Below are positions 1,072-40,427 of a stretch of 40,427 nt of DNA, one piece after another. The DNA is taken from positions 1 to 40,427 of IMG/VR virus record IMGVR_UViG_3300044961_001092. One strand, written 5' to 3'. The notes below the pieces were generated by a model. That model was not told the DNA's origin. It did not search any database and saw nothing but the letters and a program-made list of their open reading frames with translations. Every line of letters starts with the position of its first letter. Positions within the stretch are counted from its first letter, which is position 1. The stretch is from a virus. Both the position numbers and the translations under genes were made by a program.

Positions 1072-1130
1072 GGCACACTCCTCCCATCGACGGCGAAGAG
1101 GGGTGTGATACGGCTCATGCTGGTTGAAGT

Positions 1131-1718
1131 TCAGGTGTCGGCGGCGATGCACACGCCCACGTCGCCGGAAGCGGCTTGCAAGTCGATGAAACACCGCTGG
1201 GGATTGCCGAGCTCAGGCAAAAACAGCACCGCAGGGGTGTCGTTCCCCGGGCTGTACACGGTCGGATCGGCGCCCCGGAAGCTTGTGATGACGGCCTCTC
1301 CGATGCCGGTGGGGGCGGTCGCCCTGGTCGCGGTGATCTCATCGGCGACGCGCTCTGTGGCGAGCACGCCGGTCCTTGCCGCGCCCGTGCCGAACATGGC
1401 CGAAAGCCGGAACTGGCCGAAGGACAGCATGGCCAAAAGCCACTGCGGTTCTTCCGGGTCTGACGACTCAATCTGCCACGACCCCCACGCACGATAGTTG
1501 TGCAGGGTGTTTTCGCCGGCGGTGCCGAAGAATATCACGCGCCCACCCCTCCATGGTTGGGTGTTCGACGGGGCGGCAACGAACTGGCTGGGCACTGTGT
1601 TGATGAGGGCGTTGTGCGCGGTATTCGAGATAATCGCCGCAGCGCTGATTGTGAAAGATGTCGCGGAGATGTTGGCCATCGTCTGGCGGCGAAAGGCCTG
1701 AGTTCGAAGCGTGTTCAC
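1131..1718 (-). CDS. Unknown phage protein, probably structural
   Basis: A 195-residue protein that I do not recognise. It starts with GTG at 1718, preceded by AAGGAG about 6 bases upstream; the ATG at residue 14 is an alternative start. The sequence is rich in Ala, Thr, Gly and short hydrophobic stretches typical of beta-sandwich phage proteins (for example NTLHNYRAWGSWQIES), with no signal peptide, membrane segment or enzyme motif. It lies between the small membrane protein gene at 1759-2022 and the integrase, in the spike and lysis-like region. A minor virion or spike-associated protein is the most likely role, by inference from position and composition. An unrecognised muralytic role cannot be excluded but no catalytic signature is visible. 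Confidence 0.7.
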   Translation of the reverse strand: MNTLRTQAFRRQTMANISATSFTISAAAIISNTAHNALINTVPSQFVAAPSNTQPWRGGRVIFFGTAGENTLHNYRAWGSWQIESSDPEEPQWLLAMLSFGQFRLSAMFGTGAARTGVLATERVADEITATRATAPTGIGEAVITSFRGADPTVYSPGNDTPAVLFLPELGNPQRCFIDLQAASGDVGVCIAADT

Positions 1719-4944: not shown

Positions 4945-5427
4945 ATGTCTTTTCAAAGTCCCGTGGTTTCGCCCAAGTCGATCGCCCTCGACATACTGCG
5001 ATGGATCCTTGTGCTGCCGGCGGCCGCTGCTGGTGCCCTGATCTTTGCGTACATCTTTGTGCAGTGCGCCGGGTTCTTCACCAACTTCGCCAAGCCGGAG
5101 ATGGATGGGTGGGGTTTCGGCCAGCATTGGGTTTTGGGTCCCATCTACACAGTCGCCCAAGCGGTGACCAGCGCGGCCGGGTTTGTGCTTGTTGGGACGC
5201 AGTGCGCTCCTGATAGACGATCGGTCGTGTCCACCGTGCTCGCCACCATCTGGGGCATTTTCTTGCTGGCCGTCTACGGGATCTTCTGGTCGGCGTTTTT
5301 CCACGACGATCCGGACGCGAGAACCTGGAGTGCGGGCATCCGCATGACCCTGTACTTCGCCGCTGGGATGTTCGCAGCCGTGGCGGCCGCAGCCTCAATC
5401 AACGGCCGGGAACGGTTGCGGGCCTGA
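4945..5427 (+). CDS. Four-helix membrane protein, prophage moron
   Basis: A 160-residue membrane protein starting at ATG 4945, six bases after AAGGAG; the longer frame from 4894 would begin inside the -35 box. Four hydrophobic segments are visible at about residues 17-47, 63-86, 93-118 and 130-150, with charged loops between them (for example HDDPDART before helix 4). I do not recognise the family. It is the only plus-strand phage gene, has its own strong promoter, and is inserted between leftward structural and lysis genes. These are the marks of a moron, a gene expressed in the lysogen for the benefit of prophage or host. Superinfection exclusion or an envelope change is a reasonable guess, not shown. 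Its 3' end overlaps the 3' end of the giant gene by 29 bases, tail to tail. Confidence 0.85.
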   Translation: MSFQSPVVSPKSIALDILRWILVLPAAAAGALIFAYIFVQCAGFFTNFAKPEMDGWGFGQHWVLGPIYTVAQAVTSAAGFVLVGTQCAPDRRSVVSTVLATIWGIFLLAVYGIFWSAFFHDDPDARTWSAGIRMTLYFAAGMFAAVAAAASINGRERLRA

Positions 5428-11400: not shown

Positions 11401-14400
11401 GCTGGGTGACGATGACGGCGTCGTAATCTCCGAGAGCGATTTGCGCCATGAGGCGCTTGCGGTTCTTCGCGGCGAAGGTCTTCTCGTTGGCCACCAAGAT
11501 TCTGGCGTCGGGATAGGCCTGGCGGAACGATGCGGCGAACTGCCCAATGGTCGCCTTCTGCACCACGATCATGGGCTTCTTTGCCAGGCCAAGCCTCCGC
11601 ATCTCCATGGCGAGAACGATCTGAGAGAAGGTCTTGCCCGACCCCACCCCATGGGCCATGACCGCCGATCCTTCTTGGAGCACTCGCGCCACGATCGACA
11701 GCCTGTGCGGGAGTCGCCGCACGGTCTCCGTCAGGCCGGGGAGGACAAGATAAGAGCCGTCGTACTGGGCCGGAACGACCGAGTTGTTGACCTCGTTGTA
11801 GACCTGTTCCATTGCGTCCCGGGCGATCGTCTTGGTCTCCCGAAAGTCGATCTCATCTGCGGAAGTCCTGGCCCACGTCGAGAATGCCTTTTGCATCCGC
11901 TCCACCATGGCCTGGGCGGCAACGGTCGCGTCGCGGTCGACGAACGTGGTCCTTTGGGACCCAAACCCTTCTGATTTGCGAACCTCGGGCAGGGTGCCGT
12001 TGAGGGCGTGCGTGAGAAGTGCCGCACCGTCCATGTCTGCGGTGCCCCAGGTTTCCGTCGCGGCGACGGTGCCGCGCCCGCCCATCACCGCGTAACCGTT
12101 TGCGGCCTTGGCGTAGTAGACCGTGGTCGGCGCCTCGAACAGGAAAGACGCGAACGCGGACGTGACTTCGGTGGGGATCCACCTGGAAGACAGATTGAAA
12201 TCCACCTCGGCGATGGGAACGCGGGCGGGCTGCACAGCCTCGAGCGCGGCGACGTTCCGCTCGTATTCGGGGGCGTCGGCCGCAGCCTTGCGGGCCTGCT
12301 CCAGCTTCACCCGAACGTTGCCCGACAGATACCGCTCCCTGGGCTCCATGATCCCGGTGTCAGGACTCTCGAACGCTCTGCCGCTGTCCAGAATCTCCTG
12401 CTTGGCCCGCTCCGGGGTGATCCCGAGAAGCTGGGCGACGAGATCCACGTCGATGTTGTTGCGGTAACCAAGGCTAATCCCGATTGCGTCGGAGACGTTC
12501 TCGGCTTTCTTGGGCATCCGGCGTGGGCGGCGGATCCGCCTCGTGAAGATGTCGCCCTTGACGTACTCCTTTGTGGCGACCTCCACGTCCCCGCCCTTGC
12601 GCTTGCGCATGACCTTGACGGTTCGCTCCTGCTCCATCGACTGGAGGAGGGGGTAGTCGTCGTCGTCGCGCAGGAACGCAGCTCGCTCGTTGTGGGCCTG
12701 CTCTTTGGTCAGGGTGCCGTGCTTTTTGACGTAGGCGTCGTATGTCCGGTTGAGATCGGCGCGGAGCTTGTCGAGTTCGTCCTTGGAAACCCCATCGGTG
12801 TTTTCAGCGTCGAAAAGGGCCCGAGCCACGGTCCGAAGTCCGATCCAATCCTTGGCGATCTCGATCCGCTTCGCTCGCTCCTTGGCGTCGATCTTGCCGT
12901 CGTAGTCCCCTGATGTCTTTTTGATGGTGAGCCAGTCGGCGTCCTCGAATCCTTCACCCACGACTCGCTTGAACTCCCCGCCCCGGATGACGTATGAACC
13001 CTGCCGCTCGCCCTGCGCGAGAGGCGCGGTATCTTCGAGCTCAAGCGGAGTAGACCCCGAACCGGCGATGTTCTCGGGAAGCCGCTCGGTGGCCTTCTTG
13101 AGGTCGGCCTCAAGGTCTTGCCCACGGATGGAGGTGAGGGCATAGTCCCCGGCTCCGTACATCGTTCCGGCCAGAGAGTGCCGACCGAGAGCGTTCTCGG
13201 GGTGCGCGGCGAAGTACTCGTTTGCCTCGATGGGGACAGTCTCCCGGTCGTCGGCAAGTTTGACCCACCGCTCCCGCTCCTCTCGCAGGGCGGCCATGCG
13301 TTCTTGCCCCTTTTCAAAGGAGAGCTTGCCGGCTCTGTAGTCCTCCGTCACCTTGTCGATCTGGCGGTCGATCTTGTCCGTGAGGGTTTTGAGAGGCCAG
13401 CGCCCGACCTCGGTGGTGTTGATCCAGTCGGCCCCTTGGAATCCGCTGCCGTCCTTTTTCCGGAGGATGATGATGTCCGTGGTGACAGCGGTCCCGGCGT
13501 TCTCCTGGAAAGCGTCGTTGGGCAAACGGAAGGCGGCGACGAGGTCCGCCTTCTGGGAAAGCATCGCGCGAACCTTCGTCCCGCCTTTGTCCATCGTGCC
13601 GTCGCTGGTGATGAACATGACGAGCCCGCCAGGGCGAACTTTGTCGAGGGAGCGGGCGAAAAAGTAATCGTGGATGCGAAGGTCGCTGTAGTCCTTGCCT
13701 GCGATGATGTACGAGCCGAAAGGCACGTTGCTGATGGCCAAGTCAATCGAGTTGTTCGGGATCCGCGTGTCTTGGAACCCCTTCACTTCAATGCGGGCCT
13801 GTGGGTACAGCTTGCGCAGGATGCGGCCGGAAAGGCTGTCGAGCTCGACGCCGATGAGATTGCTCTCTTCGGCGACGGTCCCGGGCATCAAACCCAAGAA
13901 GTGCCCCACGCCGGCGGCAGGTTCCAGCACGTTGCCCCCCTTGAACCCCATGCGTTCGGCCATGTCCCACATGGCGGAGATGACCTGGGGTGCGGTGTAG
14001 TGGGCGTTCGTGGTGCTGGCGCGGGCGGACGCGAACTCCTCCTTGGTGAGAAGATTTTCCAGCGTCTGGTACTGCTTGGCGTACCGGGCGTTGTCGCGGT
14101 TGAAATACTCCCCTGCCCAACCCCACCCGGTGTAGCGGGCGAGGACGGCCTTCTCCTCGGGCGTGGGGTTGCGGTCCTCGGACTCCAGAGTCCGGAGGAG
14201 CTTGATGGCGTCGAGGTTGGCGGCGAACTTCCCGGTGTTGCTGGACGGCGCCATCTCGGAGCCGCGCTTGATCGTGTGGTTGCGGTCCTGAGGGGGCAGA
14301 TCCTCGGGGTTCAGTCGAGGCTTGCGCGGACTTCCGACGGGCTCACGCCCACCATCCGTGCCGCCCCCAGCAGCGTTGTCCGATGCTCCGGCGTCAGCTT

Positions 14401-17050
14401 CGACCACCGACGCCGTGCTCTGGCCAGGTTTCGCGCCTCTACCTCGGCGGCCTCCGCGGCCTCCACGCTGTCCGGGTCGAACGACTTCGGCTCCAGAATC
14501 CACCCCTCCCGCAGCTCCGTCGCCGTCGCCTCCGCCCCCTTGGCTAGCACCGCCGACGGACTTGTCGCGTTGGCCAGGAAGCTCAGGATCGCGGGCATCG
14601 ACATTGGAGGACTCCTTCGCGGAGATCTTACCTCCGCCGTTCTCGGTGACATCGACGTTACCGGGCACGGACGGATTACGAACGAACTCGGCCCCCACGG
14701 CCTGCGTAGCATCAGGCGTGCCGGACTCCCGCACCATCCCGCTGCCCGATCCGCTGCCTCGTGGTCCCATGTGGGACTCAGAGGGTGCGTTCAAGGTGTC
14801 GGCCGTGCTGGACGGCTTGGACTCGGTCTGGGTGCTTTCCGGCGACGGCCGGTCGCTCTTTTCCGGCGGACGACCCCGCAGGCTGGAGGACGACTCGGTC
14901 TCGCCCGAGGAGTTCGCGGCCGAGGCGGCGCGGCGGCGAGCGGCGTCCAAGGCCGCTCGGTAGCCCGCCTTCGATTCATCTTCGAGAGCCGTCTTCTTTG
15001 CCATCTCCTCGTTGGTGATGGTGCCGCGCTTCATCTTCTCGTCGAGGGGAGACCACTCCTCGTAGATCTTGTGGCCACGACCAGCCTTGTACGCGAGCAC
15101 CTCGGGGATGTTGACCTGGATTTCGGCAATGGTGCCCGAGGGCAGGCGGACGTTGGCGAGGATGTCCGAGTACCCCAGTTCCGTCGGCGTCGTGAAGCGG
15201 TCCTTTACCCGGGCAACGTCGAGATGTTCGGGCAGCGAGGAGAGGACCTTCGCGGCCTCCTCCGGGGTGTCGACCTCGATGGTCCCGCGGACCACGTCTT
15301 TGAGTTCGCGGAAGTCACCTTTGTAGTCCTTGCGGACCTTCCCCACGATGCGGCCCGGGGTCTTGATCGGACCCGAGATCCACTTCCCGCCGACAGCCTC
15401 GGCGATCTTCCGACCTGCCACCTGGAAAGGCGGGGCATCGTTCACCGCCGACCGATACACCTCGCGCAGCCCCGTGACCTCATCCGGTTTGATGTCTGCC
15501 GGCGAGTCGTCCGGCTTCACTTTCGCGTCCTCGTTCGCCTTTGAGGCTTGGGCGTAGGCCGCGTGGTGGGAATCATCACCCTGGTTGTTCGCTTCGGGAG
15601 AGGGTCGTTTCACCTCCGCCGACACGTTCACAGGAGCCTCATTTTCGATCGCACCCTTCGGCACCGTCGCCGTGCTGCCTGTGTCGGCGTTCCTCCTGCG
15701 ACGGATGGCCTGCATGAATCCGCCCGGATCCTGCTGAGCAAAGGCCTGTCGCGCTCGCCTGGTCTGCTCGTCCACGTTGGGGTCGTTGAGCACCAGAAGA
15801 GCCTGGTCGAACACTGAACCGGAGGCATCTTCCTGTGAGCGAGCGTTCGGTTCGTTCGTGCTGGGAATGCTCGTCCTGGACCGTCGGAACTGCTCGTGGG
15901 CGGCCTGTGTCGCATCCTGCACCATCCGCGCGGTCTCGTAAGCGATTCGGATGTCCGCGGACTTCCGGGCTTCCCGCTTGTCCACAAACCGCTGCGCGAG
16001 CTGCGGCGCTGCGAGCGTGACATCGGTTCCCGCGCCGAGAATGCCGCCGACGAGACCGGCCTGCGTCACACGGCCGACAAACCCCTCCCATGCGCTGGGA
16101 TCGTCTTCGGCCCAGCGCTGGAGGGCCATGGAAACTATTTCCTCGGACGCTTCTTGGGTGCCTTCCTTGACAAACGCCTTGGCGGCCTCGCCAAGCAGCC
16201 CCCTTGCCCCCGCCGACGCGGCCTCCCCCATGTACTTCTGGAAGACGCTGGGAGCCAGTCGTTTGAGGTACTGACCCAGAGGGATAACGCTTGAGGCCGT
16301 CGTGAAGGCGCCCATGCCAAGCCCTTCAAGACGCGCCGTCGCGTCGGATGCACCACGCTGCTTTGCATCTAGGAATTGAGAGGAACCGGATTGAATGCCC
16401 GCGGTCAACATGGCGGCCGCCATGGGGACGGTTCCGGCCCCCCCGGTCAACGCGGCGACAGTAATTGGGGGCGCCATGCTCGGAGCTGCGCGGGCAACGG
16501 TCCCGAGCATGGTTTCTGGCGGGCCGTAGCCCTCCGCCTGAGAACCCTTCGAGAGAGCGTCTTTCCGGGCGAGCTCCGAAATGTACGGGATTCCTGCGTA
16601 TTCAACAGCACCCGAGATCTGCCGACTCACGTCAAACGACCCGGCCTGGAGCTGGTCGAGCACGTCCCGAACCACGCCCTTCGGAGCCGGCGCCGGCGGC
16701 GTGAGCATCGCCCGCAGCGTCGCGGTGCTCATCGCGTCGTAGTTGGGCATGGGAGCGCCGAGCGAAACGTCGGACGGGTTTACCCTCGAGCGCAGACGCT
16801 TGAGATACACCGATCTGGCCTCGTCGCTCTCGGGGCTGGAACTGATGATGTAGTCTTCGAGGGCCTCCACGCCAGCAACCGGCGATTGTGGCGAGGTCGG
16901 AGCCTGCGTTGGATCCCCAGAGCCAGCCCCCATAGACGCCCGCACGGCCGCGATCCTGCTGGCAAGATTGTTCTGTGCCTGGTTCGCTGTTCCCGCACGG
17001 ATGCGCTGGATTCGCTGCTGAATCGTTTCGGAGTTCGAGACCGTGGACAT
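5399..17050 (-). CDS. Giant polyvalent virion protein: RelA/SpoT-like domain, DarB-like methyltransferase-helicase
   Basis: One uninterrupted 3883-codon frame with a strong GGAGGT site 9 bases before ATG 17050. N-terminal hydrophobic, virion-like segments cover about 178-345. A RelA/SpoT-like domain spans about 540-665, with Asp585 (LKDVVRG), Tyr627 (ELGYSDI) and Glu643 (IAEIQV). A low-complexity Ser/Gly linker covers about 710-940. An N6-adenine methyltransferase of DarB type follows, with motif I at 1041-1053 (VLEPAAGVGHF) and SNVPFG with Asn1108. A helicase has Walker A HGVGSGKT at 1800-1807, DEAH at 1967-1970, ATGTPITNT near 2019, and motif VI QRNGRGIRQ from Gln2354. Coiled coils follow, then a C-terminal virion-type region with hydrophobic stretches near 3430-3470 and 3640. 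DarB of phage P1 is a virion protein ejected to protect DNA from restriction, and polyvalent proteins of this design are known in phages. Position after core and nozzle genes suggests a gp16-like ejected role. Confidence 0.93.
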   Translation of the reverse strand: MSTVSNSETIQQRIQRIRAGTANQAQNNLASRIAAVRASMGAGSGDPTQAPTSPQSPVAGVEALEDYIISSSPESDEARSVYLKRLRSRVNPSDVSLGAPMPNYDAMSTATLRAMLTPPAPAPKGVVRDVLDQLQAGSFDVSRQISGAVEYAGIPYISELARKDALSKGSQAEGYGPPETMLGTVARAAPSMAPPITVAALTGGAGTVPMAAAMLTAGIQSGSSQFLDAKQRGASDATARLEGLGMGAFTTASSVIPLGQYLKRLAPSVFQKYMGEAASAGARGLLGEAAKAFVKEGTQEASEEIVSMALQRWAEDDPSAWEGFVGRVTQAGLVGGILGAGTDVTLAAPQLAQRFVDKREARKSADIRIAYETARMVQDATQAAHEQFRRSRTSIPSTNEPNARSQEDASGSVFDQALLVLNDPNVDEQTRRARQAFAQQDPGGFMQAIRRRRNADTGSTATVPKGAIENEAPVNVSAEVKRPSPEANNQGDDSHHAAYAQASKANEDAKVKPDDSPADIKPDEVTGLREVYRSAVNDAPPFQVAGRKIAEAVGGKWISGPIKTPGRIVGKVRKDYKGDFRELKDVVRGTIEVDTPEEAAKVLSSLPEHLDVARVKDRFTTPTELGYSDILANVRLPSGTIAEIQVNIPEVLAYKAGRGHKIYEEWSPLDEKMKRGTITNEEMAKKTALEDESKAGYRAALDAARRRAASAANSSGETESSSSLRGRPPEKSDRPSPESTQTESKPSSTADTLNAPSESHMGPRGSGSGSGMVRESGTPDATQAVGAEFVRNPSVPGNVDVTENGGGKISAKESSNVDARDPELPGQRDKSVGGASQGGGGDGDGAAGGVDSGAEVVRPGQRGGRGGRRGRGAKPGQSTASVVEADAGASDNAAGGGTDGGREPVGSPRKPRLNPEDLPPQDRNHTIKRGSEMAPSSNTGKFAANLDAIKLLRTLESEDRNPTPEEKAVLARYTGWGWAGEYFNRDNARYAKQYQTLENLLTKEEFASARASTTNAHYTAPQVISAMWDMAERMGFKGGNVLEPAAGVGHFLGLMPGTVAEESNLIGVELDSLSGRILRKLYPQARIEVKGFQDTRIPNNSIDLAISNVPFGSYIIAGKDYSDLRIHDYFFARSLDKVRPGGLVMFITSDGTMDKGGTKVRAMLSQKADLVAAFRLPNDAFQENAGTAVTTDIIILRKKDGSGFQGADWINTTEVGRWPLKTLTDKIDRQIDKVTEDYRAGKLSFEKGQERMAALREERERWVKLADDRETVPIEANEYFAAHPENALGRHSLAGTMYGAGDYALTSIRGQDLEADLKKATERLPENIAGSGSTPLELEDTAPLAQGERQGSYVIRGGEFKRVVGEGFEDADWLTIKKTSGDYDGKIDAKERAKRIEIAKDWIGLRTVARALFDAENTDGVSKDELDKLRADLNRTYDAYVKKHGTLTKEQAHNERAAFLRDDDDYPLLQSMEQERTVKVMRKRKGGDVEVATKEYVKGDIFTRRIRRPRRMPKKAENVSDAIGISLGYRNNIDVDLVAQLLGITPERAKQEILDSGRAFESPDTGIMEPRERYLSGNVRVKLEQARKAAADAPEYERNVAALEAVQPARVPIAEVDFNLSSRWIPTEVTSAFASFLFEAPTTVYYAKAANGYAVMGGRGTVAATETWGTADMDGAALLTHALNGTLPEVRKSEGFGSQRTTFVDRDATVAAQAMVERMQKAFSTWARTSADEIDFRETKTIARDAMEQVYNEVNNSVVPAQYDGSYLVLPGLTETVRRLPHRLSIVARVLQEGSAVMAHGVGSGKTFSQIVLAMEMRRLGLAKKPMIVVQKATIGQFAASFRQAYPDARILVANEKTFAAKNRKRLMAQIALGDYDAVIVTQPQFDLLDNKPETMRAFIGARISELESAIREAKAQAGGRHPTVKQLEAAKKNLEARLVTMLDAAAKRKDRAVFFEELGVDALLIDEAHAYKRMALVTRKMGVKGIPSGQSQRSIGLELKASQIQTKTGGKNVILATGTPITNTMAEAYVMLKLATPNVLREYNIDTFDDFANTFGTTQTKLEVTWSNKWKMVTRFNRFTNGAELVAMIRAGFDVKMGNKELGLKVPAIKGGKPELVKVKKTNGGEQIDSWLGNVADTFENLTGKERAEAGWVPIFTMQAGMAAALDPRLIDPSLPDEPGSKANVAADRIAEIYKRTDGVAGTQLVFADRFKPMNTDLLQSFAGGASQEVQISQEDVEAESNEEIQDEGSEGEESAQSAAEDEAFAAEGFNLYKDLRDKLVARGIPRDQIAIIHEYNSDKKREQLFASVNRGDIRVLIGSTEKMGVGVNVQERLVAMHHLDPPRMLTPAMMEQRNGRGIRQGNMLLEKDPNFEIEILNYGTERSMDTAIYQKLEDKGKMLAQVLSGKGVGRSFDDAAGELSAVMAEFKAALTGDPRVMRKLELENIVQQLRSEQSAFENELGLKVSKLSSTRREIKYLESSKIPNLKHLAELADAKFKDPDGVSLRTGSVNAEGRKDVAKAIDAMVSKVEEKVGDRPGRAEAKAELMGLVLLVKHMARPDGEQLYRKTVLEVETPGGNSIYSGSATTGNGLLGALQNIGDSLRRDAERSREEVESSRKREKALEEEVKRTWDKAPELAKAERELAEIDADLEGKKKNDGAVGVVLRKGEGLRRRMVSWLESVAEGARRRRLSRGFRLMSGPPIDDIIDMGIEVAAKMLARGITRGPTLTKFIQDAVQTRGAELAQYARRIRTVARRIITRSRGLDGRPNQDLMELAIAKEQARKSSAPEGKEVGANVEASTGVANAGEPRRLNRQLRRDQRTTLRAYNQGVREGMANVQAQIPSLIKQTKDAARTAYLRADIRSRSEETRRAAVRKAQADAVERLRDNLHDILRANLPPQIRGKFIRQVRTVKTLGQYMRAVQAMQRELGSLLRRQAVSRLTRTVGSFVKPKTGPTLAQQINKSLGVTKPTKPFAAKVTLGKLRPEHRAVVEPVVKSIREAKVMPDLGPLADFIADQVSQGRSNAFTDADLGALRMVGPRDLSDPNLRPEAIRLADQALRHVAWLSATYEKARVMGKMMDLRDLAASTAAQVSARHSKDLGRDKGQPPGITSKGTLRQFFGDRRRDTARMMSAAGGRDGVLYRTVYEAVAEGEDRALKLRYEGIDAMRAVLVRHKITERALSDMATTTSEVDLPDAGRIDITPSERMHLLGLWSDPQNRPEILKGGLILDRFKGQTNRVFKLTAADFDALEQSATAFEMDMLRAFKSFANGRLAQEGNQASREMDGIDLFTNPEHFSRSRDRSQRQQNARGQTSIMQRWLEDMGILKARSTSSDPIVVKDFFRFADQHIDRVSRYAHMASPIRTALMLMGHPQLRPILDARLGTQWTAEVEQRLAAVSGVDSNLRNVENRTLRKFVGNYAVATLWGRLTTVVLQKLGLLMAAADAGTWSEAAGILAKFPRLNVLNRTLFAEMTRHSGYLRDRYGEGSARLVDPTQYTGALGSRPSNALVGWYRKYKQVGMKPLEYFDQDVAIGVYAAAKSRIKQTFPHMTELQVQETAAREAALTIRRTANATSEIDHTGQGLLGHQNAFAAMWTLFASAAMKMGNQVEEAALEFYHNPSRANAARLSRAALGLMASAVLAAIIRELWRRFTRGFQDEKQPKTLDQLGVAALADVVDAFALGGSDVVKILSATLRGKPVDFNKPTSFVGLTTDIVEPVRALMARKDETTAGSTPDRAELMPKVERAVLAAMKIAGVPGEPVYTAGKGAVRLFGQPKGEPWSVYAAISRRSKDDAVERVYDYLERNKDNPRVATNLIEGVQKRVRGGRSEKEYALYLRGLSPADRDKERDRYREEWSLFGEAVREARSKQAENRVRPATVPGR

Positions 17051-24934: not shown

Positions 24935-26056
24935 TTACACGCCGACGGCGATTGCGAGTCGGTTTGGGCGTTCGCACAACATCTGCATCCACGACTCGCG
25001 GAAGACCGCTTTCATGTCGCGCTGACGTGCGCCGCCGTCCTTGATGACCTCGTTCATCATGTGCTTGGGGTGGAACGCGAGGTAGATCTCGTTGAGGTCG
25101 AGGAACCAGAACGGAGGTCGGAAGCTGGGGTAGGCCTGTGTGAACGGCGTCGCGGTGGAGTGGTCCAGCGGGAGCTCATCGATGATCGAGTAGCCGTCGA
25201 TCGGCAGACCGCGGAACATGACACCGCTGTAGTCGGAGTCCCGTCCGTTATTGTCGTTGGCGGCCCGCTGTTCCTGCTCGGCCATGTCGCGACCGTGCAG
25301 GCCGGTGACGATCTTGTACCGACGGAGCACGGACTCTTTGAAGGACGCCCGGGACAGCCCGCGCACCGCCTTGTCGAAAAGCGTGCGAGAGAAGATCTTC
25401 CCGAAGCAGGCGAAGAGCCCCGACTTCTTGTCGCCGGGGGCTGAGGACGAATAGGTCCGAAGCACGGGGCGAGCGTTGGCGTTGGTGACCCGATTGATCT
25501 GCGCGATCGTCTGGGTCGCACCCCAGTTGGCCGGGAGACCCAGGTAGGTCGACTCGTTGGACCCTGCCGGAATCCACGTCGGGATCGAGATGATGTCGCC
25601 CTTGCGGACGTTCAGGTCGATCATTTCGAGGTTGGGCACCGAGAAGAGCTGTCGCTCAATCCCCTCGTAGTGCTCGGTGTCGAGAGACGCGAAGATCTGC
25701 GCCTCCAGTCGGTTGTAGTGGGCCTCTTCGTCGCCCTCGTTGAGGTCGATCTCGGCCTCGACGATCGGCTCGTTGTTCTCGAAGAATCGCCACGGAGCCT
25801 TTGCCTCGGGCGATCCGGACCGGCGTTCGATGGACCTTTCCTCGCCGGCCTCGTAGGAGCCGAAGTTCCCCGAGGTTCGCGTGAAGAGGGTCCACTTGAG
25901 CGGGTCGCCGCCGCGGATGGTCTTGTTGGTGGGGTTGTCCAGCATGTCACCCGCGAGGTAGGACTGACGCTGGACCAGGTTCTTGATTTCGTCGTAACCC
26001 TGCACACGCGCCTCGCGCGTGTTGTTCAGGTAGTTCTCAAACGTGCTGATCGGCAT
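24935..26056 (-). CDS. Major capsid protein (HK97-fold expected)
   Basis: A 373-residue protein starting at ATG 26056, weak AAGGG upstream. It directly follows the scaffold gene, the usual order. The N-terminal third is polar and helical (TFENYLNNTREARVQGYDE), followed by a strand/E-loop-like region with WTLFTRTSGNFGSYEAGEER, a long spine-like helix with EEAHYNRLEAQIFASLDTE, and a C-terminal core with RPPFWFLDLNEIYLAFHPK and ending in MLCERPNRLAIAVGV. That closing pattern, a ligand-binding-like loop and a final strand, is common in podovirus major capsids. The size is right for the family. No head protease is seen, so maturation without proteolysis is likely. Confidence 0.82.
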   Translation of the reverse strand: MPISTFENYLNNTREARVQGYDEIKNLVQRQSYLAGDMLDNPTNKTIRGGDPLKWTLFTRTSGNFGSYEAGEERSIERRSGSPEAKAPWRFFENNEPIVEAEIDLNEGDEEAHYNRLEAQIFASLDTEHYEGIERQLFSVPNLEMIDLNVRKGDIISIPTWIPAGSNESTYLGLPANWGATQTIAQINRVTNANARPVLRTYSSSAPGDKKSGLFACFGKIFSRTLFDKAVRGLSRASFKESVLRRYKIVTGLHGRDMAEQEQRAANDNNGRDSDYSGVMFRGLPIDGYSIIDELPLDHSTATPFTQAYPSFRPPFWFLDLNEIYLAFHPKHMMNEVIKDGGARQRDMKAVFRESWMQMLCERPNRLAIAVGV

Positions 26057-26108: not shown

Positions 26109-27383
26109 TCACGATCCCGAGAGGTAAGCCTGCATGAGCGTCCGGTTTTCGTCGGGGGTGCGCCCTTCCTTGGCCGCCCTGAATCCCGCCTTCCGGATCT
26201 GCTCCGGGGTGGGCTTGCTGCCCATCTGCCCCGCCGGCCTGGACGCGGATCCGTCCCCGCCCAAGCCGTTGCCGGTCTGCCTCCTGAAATCGTCGGTCGC
26301 CTTGCTCTTGGCCTTCTCCCGGACCTGGTCGTAGAAAACAATCTTGGCCGCATCCCTCATGGTCTCGTGAATCTCTTTCACGTCGCCCGAAAGCAAGATC
26401 TCCTTGCGTTCGGGCTTGGCCATGAGGTACTCGGCCAAACGTTGGACACCGGCTTCATCTCCCAGCATGGGGAAGTCGGCCTCCAACGCATTCAGGCCCG
26501 TAGCAAAGTGAAAGGACGCTTCTTTTTCGCGGTACTGCTTCTCCCGCGTGTCTGCGTCCTGCACCCGCTTGAACAGTTCAAAGAGCTCTGACCGCGTGCG
26601 GTCAGCCTCCTCGGGGTCCATGAGCCTGAGTGCGTCTTCCAGACCGGCCGGGATGGCTGGGGCCGACTTGTCGGCCTTGCCGCCCGGGGGGGGCTGGCGG
26701 TCTCCGGCGCCGGCCTTGCGGCCTTTGCCGGTCGAGGGGGGCGAGTCTGAATGACTCGCGGCCTCGTCGTCGTCTTCGGGGGGCTGCTCATCGCTCGGGG
26801 TCTTGCCTCTGGCGTTGAGCTCGCGGCCGAAGTCGGCGTGGCGCTCCTTGAGCGTCTCGGCCAACTGTAGCACGGCGGCTTGCGTCATGCTGTCCAGGTT
26901 GCCGGGATCGAACTTGCCTTTTGTGAATCGACGAATGAAGGCCTTCGCCTCCACGATCTTTTCGTTGCGTTGCGCGAGCTTGGACCGCTCGTCATCACCA
27001 TCAAACGAAGAAGAGGGGGAGCCCTCACCGCTGGGCTTTCCCCCCTCTTTCCCGTGGCCGTTCTGCCCGCCGGGCTGCTCGCCGTCGCCGGTCCTTCCGG
27101 TCGTGGAGCCGTCCTTGGCCTGGTTCGACGTGCCCGCGGGGGCCTTGCCGATGGCCTTGAGGTAGCCGTCACGCCGGATGCGGTTGAGGACCTCGGGGTC
27201 TTTGCCTCCCTGAGTTTGCCGCTCCTGGCCCTGGCCCTTCCCCGCGCCGTTGGCGGCGCCGTTGGGAGCGCTCGCGCCCCCCTTGCCGGCGGTCCCGGCG
27301 CCGGAGGGGTTGTCGGTGGCGGTCGTCGCGCCCGGGGGGGGCTGGGATGCGGTCGGCTCGGAACTGGTCTCGATGGGGGGCAT
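26109..27383 (-). CDS. Scaffolding protein
   Basis: A 424-residue protein if started at ATG 27383; GTG 27395 in frame would add four residues. Neither start has a good ribosome-binding site. It is rich in Gly, Ala, Lys, Glu and Pro with long disordered linkers (such as GAANGAGKGQGQERQTQGG), and has helical segments near the middle (AQRNEKIVEAKAFIRRF) and C-terminal half (DRTRSELFELFKRVQDADT). The C-terminal end is basic (KAGFRAAKEGR), as expected for the capsid-binding part of scaffolds. It lies directly before the major capsid gene. Low complexity and position make the call reasonably secure although no alignment was possible. Confidence 0.78.
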   Translation of the reverse strand: MPPIETSSEPTASQPPPGATTATDNPSGAGTAGKGGASAPNGAANGAGKGQGQERQTQGGKDPEVLNRIRRDGYLKAIGKAPAGTSNQAKDGSTTGRTGDGEQPGGQNGHGKEGGKPSGEGSPSSSFDGDDERSKLAQRNEKIVEAKAFIRRFTKGKFDPGNLDSMTQAAVLQLAETLKERHADFGRELNARGKTPSDEQPPEDDDEAASHSDSPPSTGKGRKAGAGDRQPPPGGKADKSAPAIPAGLEDALRLMDPEEADRTRSELFELFKRVQDADTREKQYREKEASFHFATGLNALEADFPMLGDEAGVQRLAEYLMAKPERKEILLSGDVKEIHETMRDAAKIVFYDQVREKAKSKATDDFRRQTGNGLGGDGSASRPAGQMGSKPTPEQIRKAGFRAAKEGRTPDENRTLMQAYLSGS

Positions 27384-27424
27384 GAACGATCTCACGGGGG
27401 GTGCGGGTCGGGGGCGGTGGGGGA

Positions 27425-27802
27425 TCAGACGGCGTTGCGGCCGAGAACGCCGCGGGCGGCTCTGTCAGTCGCTCGCACATGGAGGGCCCTGATGGCCTCG
27501 TTGATGTGGTCGATGGCCTCCTGGTTCGCCGGGTGGGCGAATCGGCTGGACTGGAAGAACCTGAGTCGCTCGGCCGCGGCGACGAGGAGGTCCTCGACAA
27601 ACGCTCCGTTGGCGGGCCTGAGCTCGCCTCCGTCGGTCTTGCCGCGGGGTCCATCTTGGAAGTTCACGCACAGTCCGATGCCGTGGGCGTACCCGCCAGC
27701 GGGGTTGCCGTTCTCGTCGACGTAGTTTCGGGAACGGACGGGGTTGGACTGGCCGATGGTCGTGACGGTCTGGGGTGGTTCGCTTTGGCTGTTGTGTGTC
27801 AT
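27425..27802 (-). CDS. Tad1/Acb2-like anti-defence sponge protein (candidate)
   Basis: A 125-residue protein from ATG 27802, with weak AAGAA upstream; the longer frame to 27979 overlaps the previous gene. The sequence matches what I remember of the Acb2/Tad1 hairpin family: a strand with VNFQDGPRG (residues 46-54), the motif NGAFVEDLL (65-73) opening a long helix with ERLRFFQSSRF, and a second long helix with NEAIRALHVR running into DRAARGVLG (113-121). Tad1 binds the gcADPR signal of Thoeris defence, and Acb2 binds cyclic nucleotides of CBASS. The protein would act as a cytoplasmic sponge that blocks such signalling. Its place between scaffold and portal-side genes is unusual for an anti-defence gene. 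The family call is by memory of motifs and needs a profile search. Confidence 0.68.
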   Translation of the reverse strand: MTHNSQSEPPQTVTTIGQSNPVRSRNYVDENGNPAGGYAHGIGLCVNFQDGPRGKTDGGELRPANGAFVEDLLVAAAERLRFFQSSRFAHPANQEAIDHINEAIRALHVRATDRAARGVLGRNAV

Positions 27803-27843: not shown

Positions 27844-28290
27844 TCAGGCCTGGGTCTGGTCGGCGGGCTTCCGGCGGGAACGTCGCTCCGCCGGCGTGGT
27901 GTCGTCGGCCTTCGGGGGGGCCTCGGAACGCGGGACGACGACGGGAGCTCCCACGCTCACAAAGTTCACGGCGGGCCATTCCCAGGGCGTCTCCTCGCCC
28001 TCCTTGAGCGTCTCGGCGGGAGCGAGGAGCAGGACGTGCTTGACCTGCTCGACTTCGGGCCTGCCCCCGTCGTGCTTGGCGGAGTTGAACACCAGCGCAT
28101 TGACGATGCGGCGCGGGCCGCGACCGGGGTCCTTGTCGGTGGCGGGGACGCCGGAGTCGGACTCGACCTCGTCGATGATGATGGCCTTGCGCGGCGTGAA
28201 CGGGCTTTCCCGATGGGCACCATAGAAGTGCAGCGTGAGGCTGCTGGCGTCGGGCGTGGGCGTGGGGGCGGGGGTGGTGTCAGTTGACAT
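27844..28290 (-). CDS. Unknown 148-residue phage protein
   Basis: An acidic and proline-rich protein starting at ATG 28290, with a GGGA about ten bases upstream. The first 15 residues are Thr/Pro rich (MSTDTTPAPTPTPDASS), the middle is a compact strand-rich domain (LTLHFYGAHRE, KAIIIDEVESDSG, VNALVFNSAK, EVEQVKHVLLLAP), and the C-terminus is basic and disordered. I do not recognise the family. It lies between the FmdB-like gene and the Tad1/Acb2-like gene in the head operon, so a small virion or assembly role is possible, as is a second counter-defence gene beside the Tad1-like one. Nothing in the sequence decides between these. Confidence 0.7.
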   Translation of the reverse strand: MSTDTTPAPTPTPDASSLTLHFYGAHRESPFTPRKAIIIDEVESDSGVPATDKDPGRGPRRIVNALVFNSAKHDGGRPEVEQVKHVLLLAPAETLKEGEETPWEWPAVNFVSVGAPVVVPRSEAPPKADDTTPAERRSRRKPADQTQA

Positions 28291-28296
28291 GGCAGG

Positions 28297-28701
28297 TCAA
28301 TCCCTTGGGGTGTAACCGAGCGCGTCGCAATAACGCTTGCGATCCTCACGGTTGCGGATGATGGGGCGATCGTCCAACGTGCGATAGGTCCCGTCGGCGT
28401 TGCGCTTGACGGGGTGGCCGTCGAGGCGGTCGGCAACGGAGGGCCGGTCGGGGTCGTCGGGCGGGAGGCTTTGGGACACAGGGATGGCCTGGCCCCTGTA
28501 CTTCACGCCGCCCTGTCTGTCGATCACGCCACCTACGGGAACAAACAGGACCCGGTTGAAGGTGCCATCGGCGTCGGGCTCGGTGGCTTCCACCCACGTT
28601 CCGTCCTCAAGGAACTGGACCGACATGGGCGGGGCGGACCGCATGGGAGCGATGATCTCTCGCTTCTCCCCGCGGGCGTTCTGGTACTCGTAGACCGCCA
28701 T
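28297..28701 (-). CDS. FmdB-like small protein without zinc cysteines
   Basis: A 134-residue protein whose ATG at 28701 directly follows the portal stop codon, with GGAGG five bases upstream. The start MAVYEYQNARGEKREIIAPM resembles FmdB-type zinc ribbons (usually YEYRC..C near the N-terminus), but the Cys pairs that bind zinc are missing and only one Cys is present in the whole protein. The second half has VADRLDGHPVKRNADG and the closing RNREDRKRYCDALGYTP, which is a pattern I associate with phage relatives of this family found near portal genes. No function is known for these phage forms. The link to FmdB is weak and could be coincidence. Confidence 0.7.
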   Translation of the reverse strand: MAVYEYQNARGEKREIIAPMRSAPPMSVQFLEDGTWVEATEPDADGTFNRVLFVPVGGVIDRQGGVKYRGQAIPVSQSLPPDDPDRPSVADRLDGHPVKRNADGTYRTLDDRPIIRNREDRKRYCDALGYTPRD

Positions 28702-30678
28702 TCAGCCTCCGACCGGGGCGTAACCCCGAGACGCGGCGGAGCCGAAGCTCGACGCCTGGGACTGTGTTGCCTGCGCGAGGTTGCCCGCGCCGCGGCCGAA
28801 CCCGCCACGCGAGGACATCCACGACGACGTTCCGGCGGCTTCCCCCCCAGGCCCGCCCATTCCGCCGAATCCACCCCCCCCACCCATGGCCGTCGATTGG
28901 TGTCCGGGCCCCACCCCTATCGCGCCAGCCGTTCCGGACGAGGTCATGAGCCCAGCACCCATCCCGCCCATGGCGGCCCCGATCTGCATCTCGACCAGCA
29001 TCCGCACCATCGGCCACTTGATGTACCGCTTCCCGCCCTTGCGAATGTTCATCGTCTCCATCGTGTCGTTGATGAGCTCCTCCCACCCGACGGCCGCGGC
29101 GGCGAGAGGGTTGGCCAGGATGCGGTCCACGACCCCCGTCACAAGGTTGAGAACCTCGGTCATGCGCGAGCGGAGGGCGTTCTGGTCGACGTGCTCCATG
29201 GTGTAGGGCTCGATGTCGAGCTCCAGATCCTCAAAGCTCGCATCGTCGCCTTCTTGCACACCCCCCCGGAAGATCGCTTGCACGGTCTCTCCGGTCATGG
29301 GGTCATCCACCGGGACCGGGAACTCGACCATGTCGGAGTTCCACATGAGCCATGCGACCCGCGTGAGCAGCTCGCGGACGCAGGCGCGGAATCGGGATTG
29401 GATGTACTTCACCCGGCGGTCCGCAGCGCTCGAGGCTTCGACCACGGCCGTCGCTGTGGCATCGGCGTCGACGTTCCCCTGTCGGATCTGGGACAGGCCC
29501 GTGAGCATCTCCCAGTCGTTGTCGAGGAAGGCCATGTACTCGGCGGTGGCCTGTTGCACCCCGCCAAACTCAAACTCCTTGAGCTTGTCAAGGGCTTCGA
29601 CGGACATGACGGAGTTGTTCTGGGCGGCGACGATGGCCTTGGCGAGCTTGGCGCCCTGAACGGCCAGCATCTTCTTTGCCGCTCGGGCGTCCTCACGGGC
29701 CTTTTTGCGGTGCTCGTCCTGCTCTTGAACGTTCCGTTCAAAGAGAGCTGTGAGGCTGACGGGGAACGCTTGGCCCCGTACCCAAACGATCCCGAACACA
29801 ACGTAGGGGCCCGACGGGTGACCGAAGTACGGGGTTGGCTCGCGCAGAAAGACGCCCTCTGATTCGCGGGCGTGGGGGGTATACCCGATGGTGTAGATGG
29901 TCTTTGTGGTGCGGCACCAAATGTGGAAGATGACGACTTCGTCGCGCTCGAGGTCCTCGTTGCTGAGGTCGTCGTGAAGCGTGTCGCGTCGGACCTCGTC
30001 GGGCTTGGGCTCTTTGGACAAGGCAGCGAGGGCCTGCTGATCCCAGACCGGTGCCCCGGTTGGGTCGGTCTCGGATTGGAGGTCCGAGATGTTCCTGATC
30101 TCCCAGTGGTACTGGTACTGCGCCTGATCGGGCGTGGTGTCGGGGTCGCAGCCGAACTGCGTCGGCATGATGTACTGGGCCTCGGGGATCAAGGCGGGGA
30201 TCTGCACGCCCATGCCGGCGTACTCGGAAAGGGTGGAGCCCTTGCGTGGCACGAGGCGAACGCGGATTACGCCATAGTCCCAGAGCGTGTCGTCGGCGAC
30301 CTTGTCCAGAATCGTGAAAAGGTTGACCCTGTTGATCCAGGCGTTGAGCCCGTAGCGGAGGCTGTCGGCGTGTTGGTTTGCCGATGGTGCGAAGGTGTCG
30401 ACGTAGACGGCCGGGTTGGTGGAAACGACCGACGGCTTGATGTCGGAGATGAGCTTCCACCAGGCACCGCAGTGCGTGTCTTTGGCGCCTCGCCAGCCGC
30501 GGCGGAAGTGCGGGCCCGCGAAGTTGCGTATGCGGGCCTCCGAAAGCGTGGTGTGATCCCGTCGATGGGACTGGCCGCGGTCCAGACGTTGGCGCCACCA
30601 CCCCGGCGAGTAGCGTTCGTGTGTCGGCTTGGCTTTGCTATTCGGCGCGATCACTGAGGGCTCCCGCTTCGGGCCCAT
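28702..30678 (-). CDS. Portal protein
   Basis: A 658-residue protein from ATG 30678, which has no ribosome-binding site. It matches portal proteins of podoviruses: an N-terminal helical part (HRRDHTTLSEARIRNFAG), the wing domain with VADDTLWDYGVIRVRLVPRKG, IFHIWCRTTKTIYTIGY, a clip/stem region with ALFERNVQEQDEHRKKAREDA, and a crown region with AVVEASSAADRRVKYIQSRF and RVAWLMWNS. The last 80 residues are Gly, Met and Ser rich and disordered (GGMGGPGGEAAG). The gene lies between large terminase and the head genes, as expected. The portal forms the DNA channel at the capsid vertex and receives DNA from the terminase motor. An extended -10-like sequence occurs just before the gene. Confidence 0.88.
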   Translation of the reverse strand: MGPKREPSVIAPNSKAKPTHERYSPGWWRQRLDRGQSHRRDHTTLSEARIRNFAGPHFRRGWRGAKDTHCGAWWKLISDIKPSVVSTNPAVYVDTFAPSANQHADSLRYGLNAWINRVNLFTILDKVADDTLWDYGVIRVRLVPRKGSTLSEYAGMGVQIPALIPEAQYIMPTQFGCDPDTTPDQAQYQYHWEIRNISDLQSETDPTGAPVWDQQALAALSKEPKPDEVRRDTLHDDLSNEDLERDEVVIFHIWCRTTKTIYTIGYTPHARESEGVFLREPTPYFGHPSGPYVVFGIVWVRGQAFPVSLTALFERNVQEQDEHRKKAREDARAAKKMLAVQGAKLAKAIVAAQNNSVMSVEALDKLKEFEFGGVQQATAEYMAFLDNDWEMLTGLSQIRQGNVDADATATAVVEASSAADRRVKYIQSRFRACVRELLTRVAWLMWNSDMVEFPVPVDDPMTGETVQAIFRGGVQEGDDASFEDLELDIEPYTMEHVDQNALRSRMTEVLNLVTGVVDRILANPLAAAAVGWEELINDTMETMNIRKGGKRYIKWPMVRMLVEMQIGAAMGGMGAGLMTSSGTAGAIGVGPGHQSTAMGGGGGFGGMGGPGGEAAGTSSWMSSRGGFGRGAGNLAQATQSQASSFGSAASRGYAPVGG

Positions 30679-30714: not shown

Positions 30715-32127
30715 TCACGCGAACGTCGTGGTCTCCCCCTGGTCGCTCTCGTCGTACTGGCCCTCGTGCCTCAGAATCCACCCCAGACTGTTTGGGGGCG
30801 GTGGGGGCTCCTTGACCAGCTCGCTGGGGTCGATCTCCTCGGCAGCCATGACCACATATCGCATGGCATCCATGCCGTGGTCACCGACCTTGAGAGGCTC
30901 CTCGATGGCGGGCTTCCCCTCCTTGGGCGGGGCCCAGACGTAGCCGCCAAACTCCTCCAGGGTGCTGCACGGCTTCCCGCGACTGACAAGGGAGGCGTCG
31001 CGCTCAATGAGAGCCGACCGCAGGAAGAAAATCCGTGGGCGGCCGTCTCCCGCCCTTCGGAGCCGTCGCTTGACGGCCTCGATGCCCGGGAGCACGTCCT
31101 TGTTTGCCCTGGCGGTCGGGATCCCCTCGGCCCAAAGGGTTGCCCGGTCCTCGGCGTCGTGATCTGCTACGGTCAGCTCCACGGGCTCACCCTCGGAGTT
31201 CTCGCGGATGAGGGTGGCGTGATCGCTCACCAGGCGTTCGGTCCGATAGATCTCGCGGTAGAGGTACAGGCGACCGTCGGGGTCCATGGCCCACCATTGG
31301 CAAACGAACGGGTTCGTGTACCCGAAGTCGATGCCGCGGATCCGTCGCCATCTATGCCATCCCTCGGGCATCTCGTCGATGACGTGGATTCGCTCATCGA
31401 AGGTGTCGTAAACCACGCCTTCGGCCGCGGTCCACAGGCCTTTGCGGAGGCGGTCGTGGTTGTACCCAGTCAGCGCGTCGAGCTGGCGGATGTAGATCTC
31501 TCCGTCCCGTGTCCACCCCTTGCCGTCGTGCCACTTCGGGTTGTCCTCGTGGCGGGATGGGATGCTGGTGATGCGGCCGGCGTCCATCTCGATCTTGAGC
31601 CAGTGCTTTGGGCCGGCGGGATTGCAGTCGAGGATGATCTGGGAGAAGGGCATCCGTTTGTAGCGGTGCAGGCGGGTGGTGAGCTTCTGGTAGTCGTCGA
31701 AAGTGAGCTCGGTCGACTCGAAGCAGCAGATGAGGTCCCACTCCGTGGACATGACTCGGCGGGAGTCGGACCCGTCGGCGTTCTTCATGCCCCCGCAGAC
31801 GATCGTCGAGCCGTTGGCAAGGTCGTAACTGGAGCGCGTCTTGCGTGCGGCGCCGTCTCGGAGTGGGTGCCCGTCCGGCAAGACCTCGTTCTCGAACGTG
31901 GCGAGGACCGATTCAGACAGGTCGGCTCTGAGCTTGCGGACCAGAAGTATGCGGGCGTTCGGCCAGGTCGTGGCGCAGTAGAGGGCTTTTTCGAGAACCC
32001 CCCTCGTCTTGCCGGTGCCGGCGGGCCCGTGGTAGCAGATGGCGGGATCGCGGCAGTAGAACAGCCGTTCGGACCCACCGCGGGGCATGTAGGGCTTGGA
32101 CTCGGGGCGAAGGAGAGGGGGCACCAC
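30715..32127 (-). CDS. terL: Terminase large subunit
   Basis: A 470-residue packaging motor. The ATPase has Walker A GPAGTGKT at residues 34-41, a Walker B-like strand LICCFESTE at 132-140 with acidic residues, and the coupling-type motif LDCNPAGP at 167-173. The nuclease domain has GIDFGYTNP with Asp267, VADHDAEDR with Asp322 and Asp324, and GDHGMDAMRY with Asp417 and Asp420, the usual metal-binding set. GTG 32127 follows the stop of the upstream gene by one base (TGACGTG), so coupling is likely. The overall pattern is PBSX/Terminase_3-like. It cleaves concatemeric DNA and pumps it through the portal. Confidence 0.93.
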   Translation of the reverse strand: MVPPLLRPESKPYMPRGGSERLFYCRDPAICYHGPAGTGKTRGVLEKALYCATTWPNARILLVRKLRADLSESVLATFENEVLPDGHPLRDGAARKTRSSYDLANGSTIVCGGMKNADGSDSRRVMSTEWDLICCFESTELTFDDYQKLTTRLHRYKRMPFSQIILDCNPAGPKHWLKIEMDAGRITSIPSRHEDNPKWHDGKGWTRDGEIYIRQLDALTGYNHDRLRKGLWTAAEGVVYDTFDERIHVIDEMPEGWHRWRRIRGIDFGYTNPFVCQWWAMDPDGRLYLYREIYRTERLVSDHATLIRENSEGEPVELTVADHDAEDRATLWAEGIPTARANKDVLPGIEAVKRRLRRAGDGRPRIFFLRSALIERDASLVSRGKPCSTLEEFGGYVWAPPKEGKPAIEEPLKVGDHGMDAMRYVVMAAEEIDPSELVKEPPPPPNSLGWILRHEGQYDESDQGETTTFA

Positions 32128-32128
32128 G

Positions 32129-32599
32129 TCACACTCTGTTCGGATCGAGGTTGATGTACTGCTTCACAAGGTCCTCTTGGCTCTTGACCTCCCGCTCTTT
32201 CAGCCGGATCTCGTCCTCGTGGTGCTCGTCCTTCTGCTGAAGCGCAGCGATCATCGCGCCGGTCCGCGCCAAACTGGCGAGCGCGTCGATGGTCGCCACC
32301 TTTTCAGAGGGCTTCTCGGCGGTCCTGAGCTGCTTCCTCGCGGCGTCCACCGCCTCGACCATGCCCTTCACCAGCTTGTTCTGAACCGCCTCGTCCATCG
32401 CGCGGAACCGCCGCGGTGCCCCTTTGGCGAGCTGCCGCACAAGCCCCCGATCCTTCTCGTCGGCCATGTCGACCTCGACGGAAGGTCCCGAAAGTCGTGG
32501 CTGCCCCTTGATTCCTGGACGCGCGGACTTCGCCCCTCCCGCCGGAGACGGGGCCAAAGACCCGCCAGACTTGGGTGTGTTTGTGGGTTGGCGAGCCAT
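32129..32599 (-). CDS. Putative terminase small subunit
   Basis: A 156-residue protein from ATG 32599. The first 45 residues are Pro/Ser/Gly rich and basic. The rest is helical with repeated charged heptads, including LVRQLAKGAPRRFRAMDEAV, EKVATIDALASLARTGAMI and DEIRLKEREVKSQEDLVKQ. Small terminases form helical rings that recognise the packaging site. This protein has the right size, a predicted coiled coil, and lies immediately before terL with a one-base spacing. A DNA-binding N-terminal HTH is not evident, so the call is mainly by position. A regulatory or assembly role remains possible. Confidence 0.62.
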   Translation of the reverse strand: MARQPTNTPKSGGSLAPSPAGGAKSARPGIKGQPRLSGPSVEVDMADEKDRGLVRQLAKGAPRRFRAMDEAVQNKLVKGMVEAVDAARKQLRTAEKPSEKVATIDALASLARTGAMIAALQQKDEHHEDEIRLKEREVKSQEDLVKQYINLDPNRV

Positions 32600-37511: not shown

Positions 37512-38471
37512 TCACGCCTTGACCAACCGCGGGACCACCCCGCGGCTCTCGCTCACGTACTTCGCGTAGACCTCGGGCAACTCCGACCTGAGCCTCGCCG
37601 TGTCCACGCGCTTTCCGAATGACTGCTCGACGCACCGCAGGAGCTTGGTTTCGCCGTCCAGCCGCACGCGGGCGGCCTCGGCGGACCCCAGCAGGGCGAC
37701 GGCGCGGGCCTTGGCCGCTTCTTCCTGCGCCTCAATCAGCTTGCGCCGCTCCTGAGCGTCCCTCCACGCCGCGACCGCTTCGCTGGCCCCCGCGTCGTTC
37801 GTCAGGTCGATCACGGACGACGGTTCCCGCCGCACGCGGCGAAGGGTGTCCAGCGACGGCGGGGCCTCATCGGCGGGCAGGGGCGTGCGTTCCAAGACGT
37901 GCGTCTTCCACCACGCGGCGCATCGGGCTTCGACGACCACGATCAGCTCGGCCACGTCGGGGGTGTCCCGATCGACCTGGTACAGAACCCGACCCCGCCC
38001 GCCGATGAGGGCCGGCACGTAGACCCGCCGAACCGACGGCGCGGCGATGAGCTGCCCGACCACTTGGAGCAGGTGCCGCATGGGAATCTGGTCCGTCCCG
38101 GCCTCGCCCCACTCATCGCCGACGCCCGCGGGGTTCAAAATCCCCGCGGTCTTGGCCTCGATGCCCACGGCCTGCTCTTTGCGTGCCACGGCGTCGAAGG
38201 TCGCGGCGTTGACGCCGTTGGGACCCACGCGCCACTGATTGCGGACGACCTCTCGGAGCCCGATTTCCGCCGCGCACCATTCGATCAGCATGGGCTCGAT
38301 GCCCAGCCCGATTTCCGCCGCCTCCCCGGCCCTGTCGTCCTGCACCGGCAGGGTGTAATACGCCAGCACGTCGGCAGCCGTGCGGAATGGGTCGCACCCC
38401 ATCACCGCGGGGACCTTGGAGGCCGTCAGGTACTTGCGCCGCTGTTCCTGTTGCCACGGGGTGAGGCTCAT
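37512..38471 (-). CDS. YqaJ/lambda-type exonuclease
   Basis: A 319-residue protein from ATG 38471, overlapping the upstream winged-helix gene by ATGA. Motifs of the PD-(D/E)XK exonuclease family are visible in order: TASKVPAVMGCDPF near residue 16, GLGIEPML with Glu59, NAATFDAVA with Asp93, VGIEAKTAG with Glu105 and Lys107, and a helix with MRHLLQVVGQLIA bearing Gln136 and Gln140. It digests one strand of double-stranded ends from 5' to 3', leaving 3' tails for the neighbouring annealing protein. The last third is a charged coiled coil (DAQERRKLIEAQEEAAKAR) that may bind that partner. Confidence 0.88.
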   Translation of the reverse strand: MSLTPWQQEQRRKYLTASKVPAVMGCDPFRTAADVLAYYTLPVQDDRAGEAAEIGLGIEPMLIEWCAAEIGLREVVRNQWRVGPNGVNAATFDAVARKEQAVGIEAKTAGILNPAGVGDEWGEAGTDQIPMRHLLQVVGQLIAAPSVRRVYVPALIGGRGRVLYQVDRDTPDVAELIVVVEARCAAWWKTHVLERTPLPADEAPPSLDTLRRVRREPSSVIDLTNDAGASEAVAAWRDAQERRKLIEAQEEAAKARAVALLGSAEAARVRLDGETKLLRCVEQSFGKRVDTARLRSELPEVYAKYVSESRGVVPRLVKA

Positions 38472-39965: not shown

Positions 39966-40427
39966 CTACCGCACCTGAATCGTCGGCTGCACCCGCAGCG
40001 GGCACGTCGATCGTGCACGCTTCGCCGATTCGATGATCTCCGCCAGGCTTGTGCGTGCAAAGCCCTGCTCCACGCTGTCCAGCGCGTCGTCGAGCTGCTT
40101 GTGCAGAGGGCACAGCAGCACGTGCTCCGGATTGCCCAGCGGGCACCGCTTGATCCGGGCGATCGGGTCCACCGCATTGACCACGTCCAGGATCGAGATG
40201 TCCTTCGGCAATCGCTGCAGACAGAAACCCCCGTTGGGGCCCCGCTGCGACCCGATCAACCCCGCGAGCACCAAATCCCGCATCACCTTCGACAGGTACC
40301 CCTTCGGAACCTTGGTTGCCTTCGCCACCGACTCGCTGTTCGCCGTCCCACCTTCCCCCAGAGAGGCGAGGTGCACCATCGCCCGAAGCGCATACTCGAT
40401 TGTCTGTGAGATCATCGACGAGCCCAT
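39966..40427 (-). CDS. Rrf2-family transcription regulator, iron-sulfur type
   Basis: A 153-residue host regulator whose start codon lies at the very edge of the window. Many Rrf2 proteins start at MISQT, which here is residue 5 (ATG at 40415), so the true start may be there. The winged helix is clear: ISQTIEYALRAMVHLA, ATKVPKGYLSKVMRDLV and SQRGPNGGFCL with the wing. The cluster-binding region has Cys95 and Cys106 in RIKRCPLGNPEHVLLCPLH; further Cys69 and Cys142 are present. Members of the family sense iron-sulfur clusters, nitric oxide or oxidants. The class with CPLG and LCPLH is one I associate with Planctomycetota and relatives. The gene is host, outside attR. Confidence 0.9.
   Translation of the reverse strand: MGSSMISQTIEYALRAMVHLASLGEGGTANSESVAKATKVPKGYLSKVMRDLVLAGLIGSQRGPNGGFCLQRLPKDISILDVVNAVDPIARIKRCPLGNPEHVLLCPLHKQLDDALDSVEQGFARTSLAEIIESAKRARSTCPLRVQPTIQVR

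Follow-up and report, generated by a model that had tools for sequence, protein, structure and literature searches.

Gene content of the head module

The window, i.e. the whole stretch of DNA that was analysed, corresponds to an IMG/VR record, linear and 40,427 bases long, which carries a phage head module on its minus strand. The genes follow each other in the order small terminase subunit, large terminase subunit (TerL), portal, FmdB-like protein, a 148-aa protein, Tad1, scaffold-like protein and capsid-like protein. These genes and the features used for assigning virus and host are listed below.

1 to 1194, minus strand: integrase, at the left end
24935 to 26056, minus strand: capsid-like protein, 373 aa (position and conserved order; 32% identical to the protein at the same place in the related record L050; no family match)
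26109 to 27395, minus strand: scaffold-like protein, directly downstream of Tad1, starting with GTG at 27395 or ATG at 27383 (position, composition and a weak match to the same-place L050 gene; no family match)
27425 to 27802, minus strand: Tad1-family gene, 125 aa (125 codons plus TGA)
27844 to 28290, minus strand: 148-aa gene of unassigned function, directly upstream of Tad1 (weak match to the same-place L050 gene; no family match)
28297 to 28701, minus strand: FmdB-like small protein, 134 aa (homologues in L050, E = 1e-12, and in L196; conserved after the portal gene in relatives; no family match)
28702 to 30678, minus strand: portal protein, 658 aa (Pfam SU10_portal, 1.6e-6, below the curated cut-off; phrog_1216, 3.3e-6)
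30715 to 32127, minus strand: large terminase subunit (Pfam Terminase_3, 8e-9; phrog_2, 1.6e-31)
32129 to 32599, minus strand: probable small terminase subunit, 156 aa (weak PHROG match, E = 0.013, and position before TerL)
37512 to 38471: RecE/YqaJ-type exonuclease
39966 to 40427, minus strand: Rrf2 regulator, at the right end

The original prediction had placed an anti-defence gene between FmdB-like or unknown genes and a scaffold gene. This order is correct, but the names "FmdB-like", "scaffold" and "capsid" come without a family match and rest on position, size and conserved gene order. Gaps of about 30–40 nt separate the Tad1 gene from both of its same-strand neighbours, and neither a promoter-like site (in a scan for the sigma-70 type) nor a terminator-like site was detectable on the minus strand between these neighbours. 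For the portal and capsid-like proteins, searches in phage records and IMG/VR retrieved either no relatives or a single lineage.

The Tad1-family gene starts with ATG at position 27802 and ends with TGA at 27427–27425. The coordinates of the predicted reading frame were thus exact, and the strand, which had been left unspecified, is the minus strand. Reading the same stretch on the plus strand yields an unrelated product. A longer reading frame of 184 aa, starting at 27979, was rejected, as it overlaps the 148-aa gene and the relatives start near 27802. The GC content by codon position (0.67/0.49/0.83) resembles that of the neighbouring genes. Pairwise comparison of the Tad1 gene with its five closest relatives yielded dN values of 0.29–0.39 and dS values of 0.95–1.74, and therefore the gene is protein-coding and, as judged from these substitution rates, under purifying selection. 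RNA folding of the stretch did not exceed that of shuffled sequences (z 0.31) and therefore we claim no regulatory RNA structure. No clear Shine-Dalgarno-like site was visible upstream of the Tad1 gene, and the same is true for several neighbouring genes.

The integrase at the left end together with the RecE/YqaJ-type exonuclease indicates a temperate phage, probably a prophage. With the integrase on the left and the Rrf2 regulator on the right, the record resembles a prophage plus a small host flank. The host is probably a planctomycete, as hinted by the best relatives of the Rrf2 regulator, which are 66–68% identical and reside in genomes of the same class as a Phycisphaerales bacterium. Sampling of 198 genomes from this probable host class revealed Thoeris STALD proteins in 4 and CBASS SMODS proteins in 18 of them, and Tad1-family matches were present in 6 of 397 genomes. 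Therefore, both defences and the counter-defence occur there. Of note, positions 5399–17050 (minus strand) consist of one open reading frame of 3883 aa with weak matches to SNF2 and Helicase_C. Its product is reminiscent of a large polyvalent protein and is possibly transported in the virion.

Family membership and predicted fold

Scans of the window protein alone against Pfam and NCBIfam yielded no match, and this includes the Pfam family Acb2_Tad1_hairpin (PF24729). The latter does match 11 of the 48 relatives that were aligned, at best with 2.8e-8. Within PHROGs, the window protein belongs to the unnamed family phrog_2428 (4.2e-16). Direct comparison with PDB sequences by phmmer detected CbTad1 over nearly the full length at 1.8e-7 and CmTad1 at 5e-4, and a tblastn search retrieved Tad1 of Bacillus phage SBSphiJ7 at 3e-6, with 42% identity over residues 46–121. 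A family profile was built from the 48 relatives, which derive from IMG/VR and bacterial genomes. When compared with PDB sequences, this profile matched CmTad1 at 3.5e-18 and CbTad1 at 8.8e-16. The similarity to Tad1 greatly exceeds what would arise by chance. Accordingly, the proposed relationship to the Acb2/Tad1 family, which had been based on short motifs, is borne out by the profile search. The four motifs are also present as quoted, i.e. VNFQDGPRG at residues 46–54, NGAFVEDLL at 65–73, ERLRFFQSSRF at 78–88 and RATDRAARGVLG ending at residue 121.

Seventeen residues are invariant across the 48 sequences, among them N65, G66, E70, R79, N93, R110 and R114, and the window protein keeps all 17. 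The ligand pocket of CbTad1 involves residues F82, N92, R109 and R113. If the crystallised chain starts with one additional residue, these align with F83, N93, R110 and R114 of the window protein in the phmmer alignment, and of these putative equivalents N93, R110 and R114 belong to the invariant set. We regard this correspondence to the CbTad1 pocket as a lead only.

Using the alignment of the 48 relatives, AlphaFold2 predicted a monomer with a mean pLDDT of 94. The model has strands at residues 12–14, 22–28, 34–41 and 44–48, followed by helices at residues 69–84 and 91–116. Tad1 consists of an N-terminal antiparallel beta part and two long C-terminal helices (PMC12043709), and this layout is present in the model, with four N-terminal antiparallel strands preceding the two long helices. 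Indeed, all 20 PDB fold matches below an E-value of 0.001 are entries of CbTad1 or CmTad1, and the top match among predicted viral structures is an Acb2/Tad1 hairpin protein of Vibrio phage VP-1. The TM-scores to Tad1 are moderate (0.49–0.68), with large rmsd for several entries, which might reflect a different angle between the beta part and the hairpin in the monomer model. The predicted structure is thus that of Tad1 rather than a different fold.

Taken together, the window protein is clearly a real Tad1 homologue and, within the Acb2/Tad1 family, falls into the Tad1 branch. The original prediction had named the product "Tad1/Acb2-like", of which the Tad1-like part holds and the Acb2-like part has to be dropped, because the N-terminal beta part is absent from Acb2. 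The four strands preceding the hairpin speak against Acb2 proper as identity of the protein; among the sequence and fold matches listed for the window protein there were no Acb2 chains. The kind of protein is therefore already known, and what is unusual is its genome position only.

Genome position of Tad1 in the window and in relatives

Two further records, L046 and L050, which apparently represent one lineage, encode relatives of both terminase subunits, the portal, FmdB-like and capsid-like proteins and of several downstream proteins in the same order. Between the FmdB-like and the capsid-like gene, they contain only a gene of about 190 codons and a scaffold-like gene, both of which show weak similarity to the corresponding genes of the window. 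A Tad1 gene was not found elsewhere in these two records, both of which are fragments. Tad1 is likewise lacking in L196, L197 and L198, three pieces of prophages in genomes that share the class of the Phycisphaerales bacterium; their layout is portal, zero to two small genes, scaffold-like and capsid-like. Because syntenic relatives carry the module without it, we interpret Tad1 as an accessory insertion, located in a region of the head module that accepts small extra genes. Within its lineage, it is an isolated accessory gene present in one of the members sampled.

None of the window's head genes surrounds Tad1 in the ten relatives that were found first. Of the relatives in which TerL could be detected, the two closest (L004 and L104) have it about 11–12 kb away from Tad1. 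In Vibrio phages and OLIVR5, primase, rII, recombination and ligase genes are found in the vicinity of the Tad1 relative. A tally of 111 genes directly adjoining family members showed helicases, a methyltransferase and recombination proteins to be the most frequent PHROGs with a name, and terminases were also present. The remark that the gene lies outside the early region, where anti-defence genes are usually located, thus describes a real difference from most relatives, but inspection of neighbouring genes together with a survey of terminase positions in 50 records identified at least six loci (L130, L108, L138, L120, L111 and L165) in which TerL adjoins Tad1 or is found within a few genes. 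Therefore, the position of Tad1 in the window is unusual rather than unique, and a spot near the packaging genes is recurrent. A location between portal and capsid genes was seen in the window only, as far as this incomplete survey reaches.

The six loci just named are on unrelated viral contigs, with Tad1 placed directly before TerL or a few genes away from it. In four other records (L106, L118, L124 and L173), the Tad1-family gene adjoins or overlaps a phrog_62 DNA helicase gene, a pairing that is possibly conserved.

Proposed function and comparison with known systems

Tad1 binds gcADPR as well as cyclic di- and trinucleotides (PMC12043709), and by homology an anti-defence activity is predicted for the window protein. 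Most probably, it is an ordinary second-messenger sponge with anti-Thoeris and/or anti-CBASS activity, made with the late genes and representing an accessory acquisition in a prophage. According to this model, Tad1 alone would have been gained as an accessory gene, with the 148-aa gene on one side and the scaffold-like gene on the other. The protein would fold into a beta part and a helical hairpin, presumably assemble into an oligomer and bind gcADPR (Thoeris) and/or cyclic di- or trinucleotides (CBASS) without cleaving them. Characteristic of Tad1 are a hexamer made up of three dimers, sequestration of gcADPR and cyclic oligonucleotides in intact form and the rescue of phages from Thoeris or CBASS. 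The defence effectors would stay off, allowing the cell to survive long enough for phage production. Since it would be co-read with the head genes, the product may peak as the capsid protein appears. According to reviews, the major head protein of phages is sensed by Thoeris (PMC12043709), and phages with an acb2 deletion escape CBASS with the help of capsid mutations (PMC10419184). A sponge made with the head genes might thus be timed to its trigger.

The sponge might be made late with the head proteins to meet capsid-triggered defences, or be carried in the virion and be present from entry on, for which gp184 of phage phiKZ provides a general precedent; we consider this unlikely. Somewhat less probable still is that the protein is head-associated, i.e. 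that the Tad1 fold has been recruited to a function in head structure or assembly, or that the sponge is packaged and delivered with the DNA. Such a role would fit the location of the gene between the portal and capsid-like genes. It would also have parallels in gp184 of phiKZ, whose C-terminal domain is Tad1-like and which is a virion protein reported to be injected (PMC10449902), and in a "structural protein" of Klebsiella phage vB_KvM-Eowyn (BFVD A0A7R8MJE9), whose fold matches the Tad1 model at 1.6e-3. However, the absence of Tad1 from four syntenic relatives indicates that it is not needed for the head, and close relatives of the protein occur in phages that lack the window's head genes. 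Unlike gp184, the window protein has no domain beyond the Tad1 fold, and inspection for signs of packaging revealed neither an extra domain nor a long tail.

A decayed or idle passenger, which has kept the fold and lost the ability to bind signals, might be expected of a single accessory gene sampled in one member of a lineage. This is highly improbable, as the reading frame is intact, 17 of 17 family-invariant residues are kept, dN is well below dS and the codon pattern resembles that of the neighbours. The gene adds to the Tad1 family a phage lineage which has hardly any relatives in databases and probably infects planctomycetes, and with a sponge gene in a head operon the timing of counter-defence becomes testable.

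Among characterised proteins, CbTad1 of a Clostridium botulinum prophage (PDB 7uav, 7uaw, 8smd and 8kbe–8kbh) resembles the window protein in its full-length alignment, in the order of strands and hairpin and as top PDB fold match. It is 27–28% identical in fold alignments and has another genome setting; ligand binding has been shown for CbTad1, whereas it is predicted for the window protein. CmTad1 (PDB 8kbb–8kbd), the best match of the family profile, provides the fold match of lowest rmsd (3.9 Å), but is only about 23% identical. Tad1 of SBSphiJ7, similar over the residues quoted above, differs in belonging to a large herellevirus, where the gene is found among annotations that are hypothetical only. 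Acb2 of Pseudomonas phage PaMx41 has the hairpin (Pfam Acb2_Tad1_hairpin) and the sponge principle in common with the window's Tad1. It differs by its size of about 94 aa and by lacking the beta part, and its gene is located at the end of the replication block in a direction opposite to the structural genes.

The C-terminal Tad1-like domain of phiKZ gp184 (PDB 8y6v chain I; gene PHIKZ184, NC_004629 198808–199158) matches the family profile at 5.1e-8, and an orthologue in Pseudomonas phage PA1C (L199:4608-5189) matches CmTad1 at 1e-7. In contrast to the window protein, gp184 carries about 110 additional residues at its N-terminus, and it is reported to be an inner-body interactor that was validated as an injected protein (PMC10449902). 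Our literature search retrieved no stated function for gp184; by its similarity to Tad1 it could be a virion-borne sponge. This observation may even outweigh our main finding, as it points to a domain of the sponge family that is delivered with the virion.
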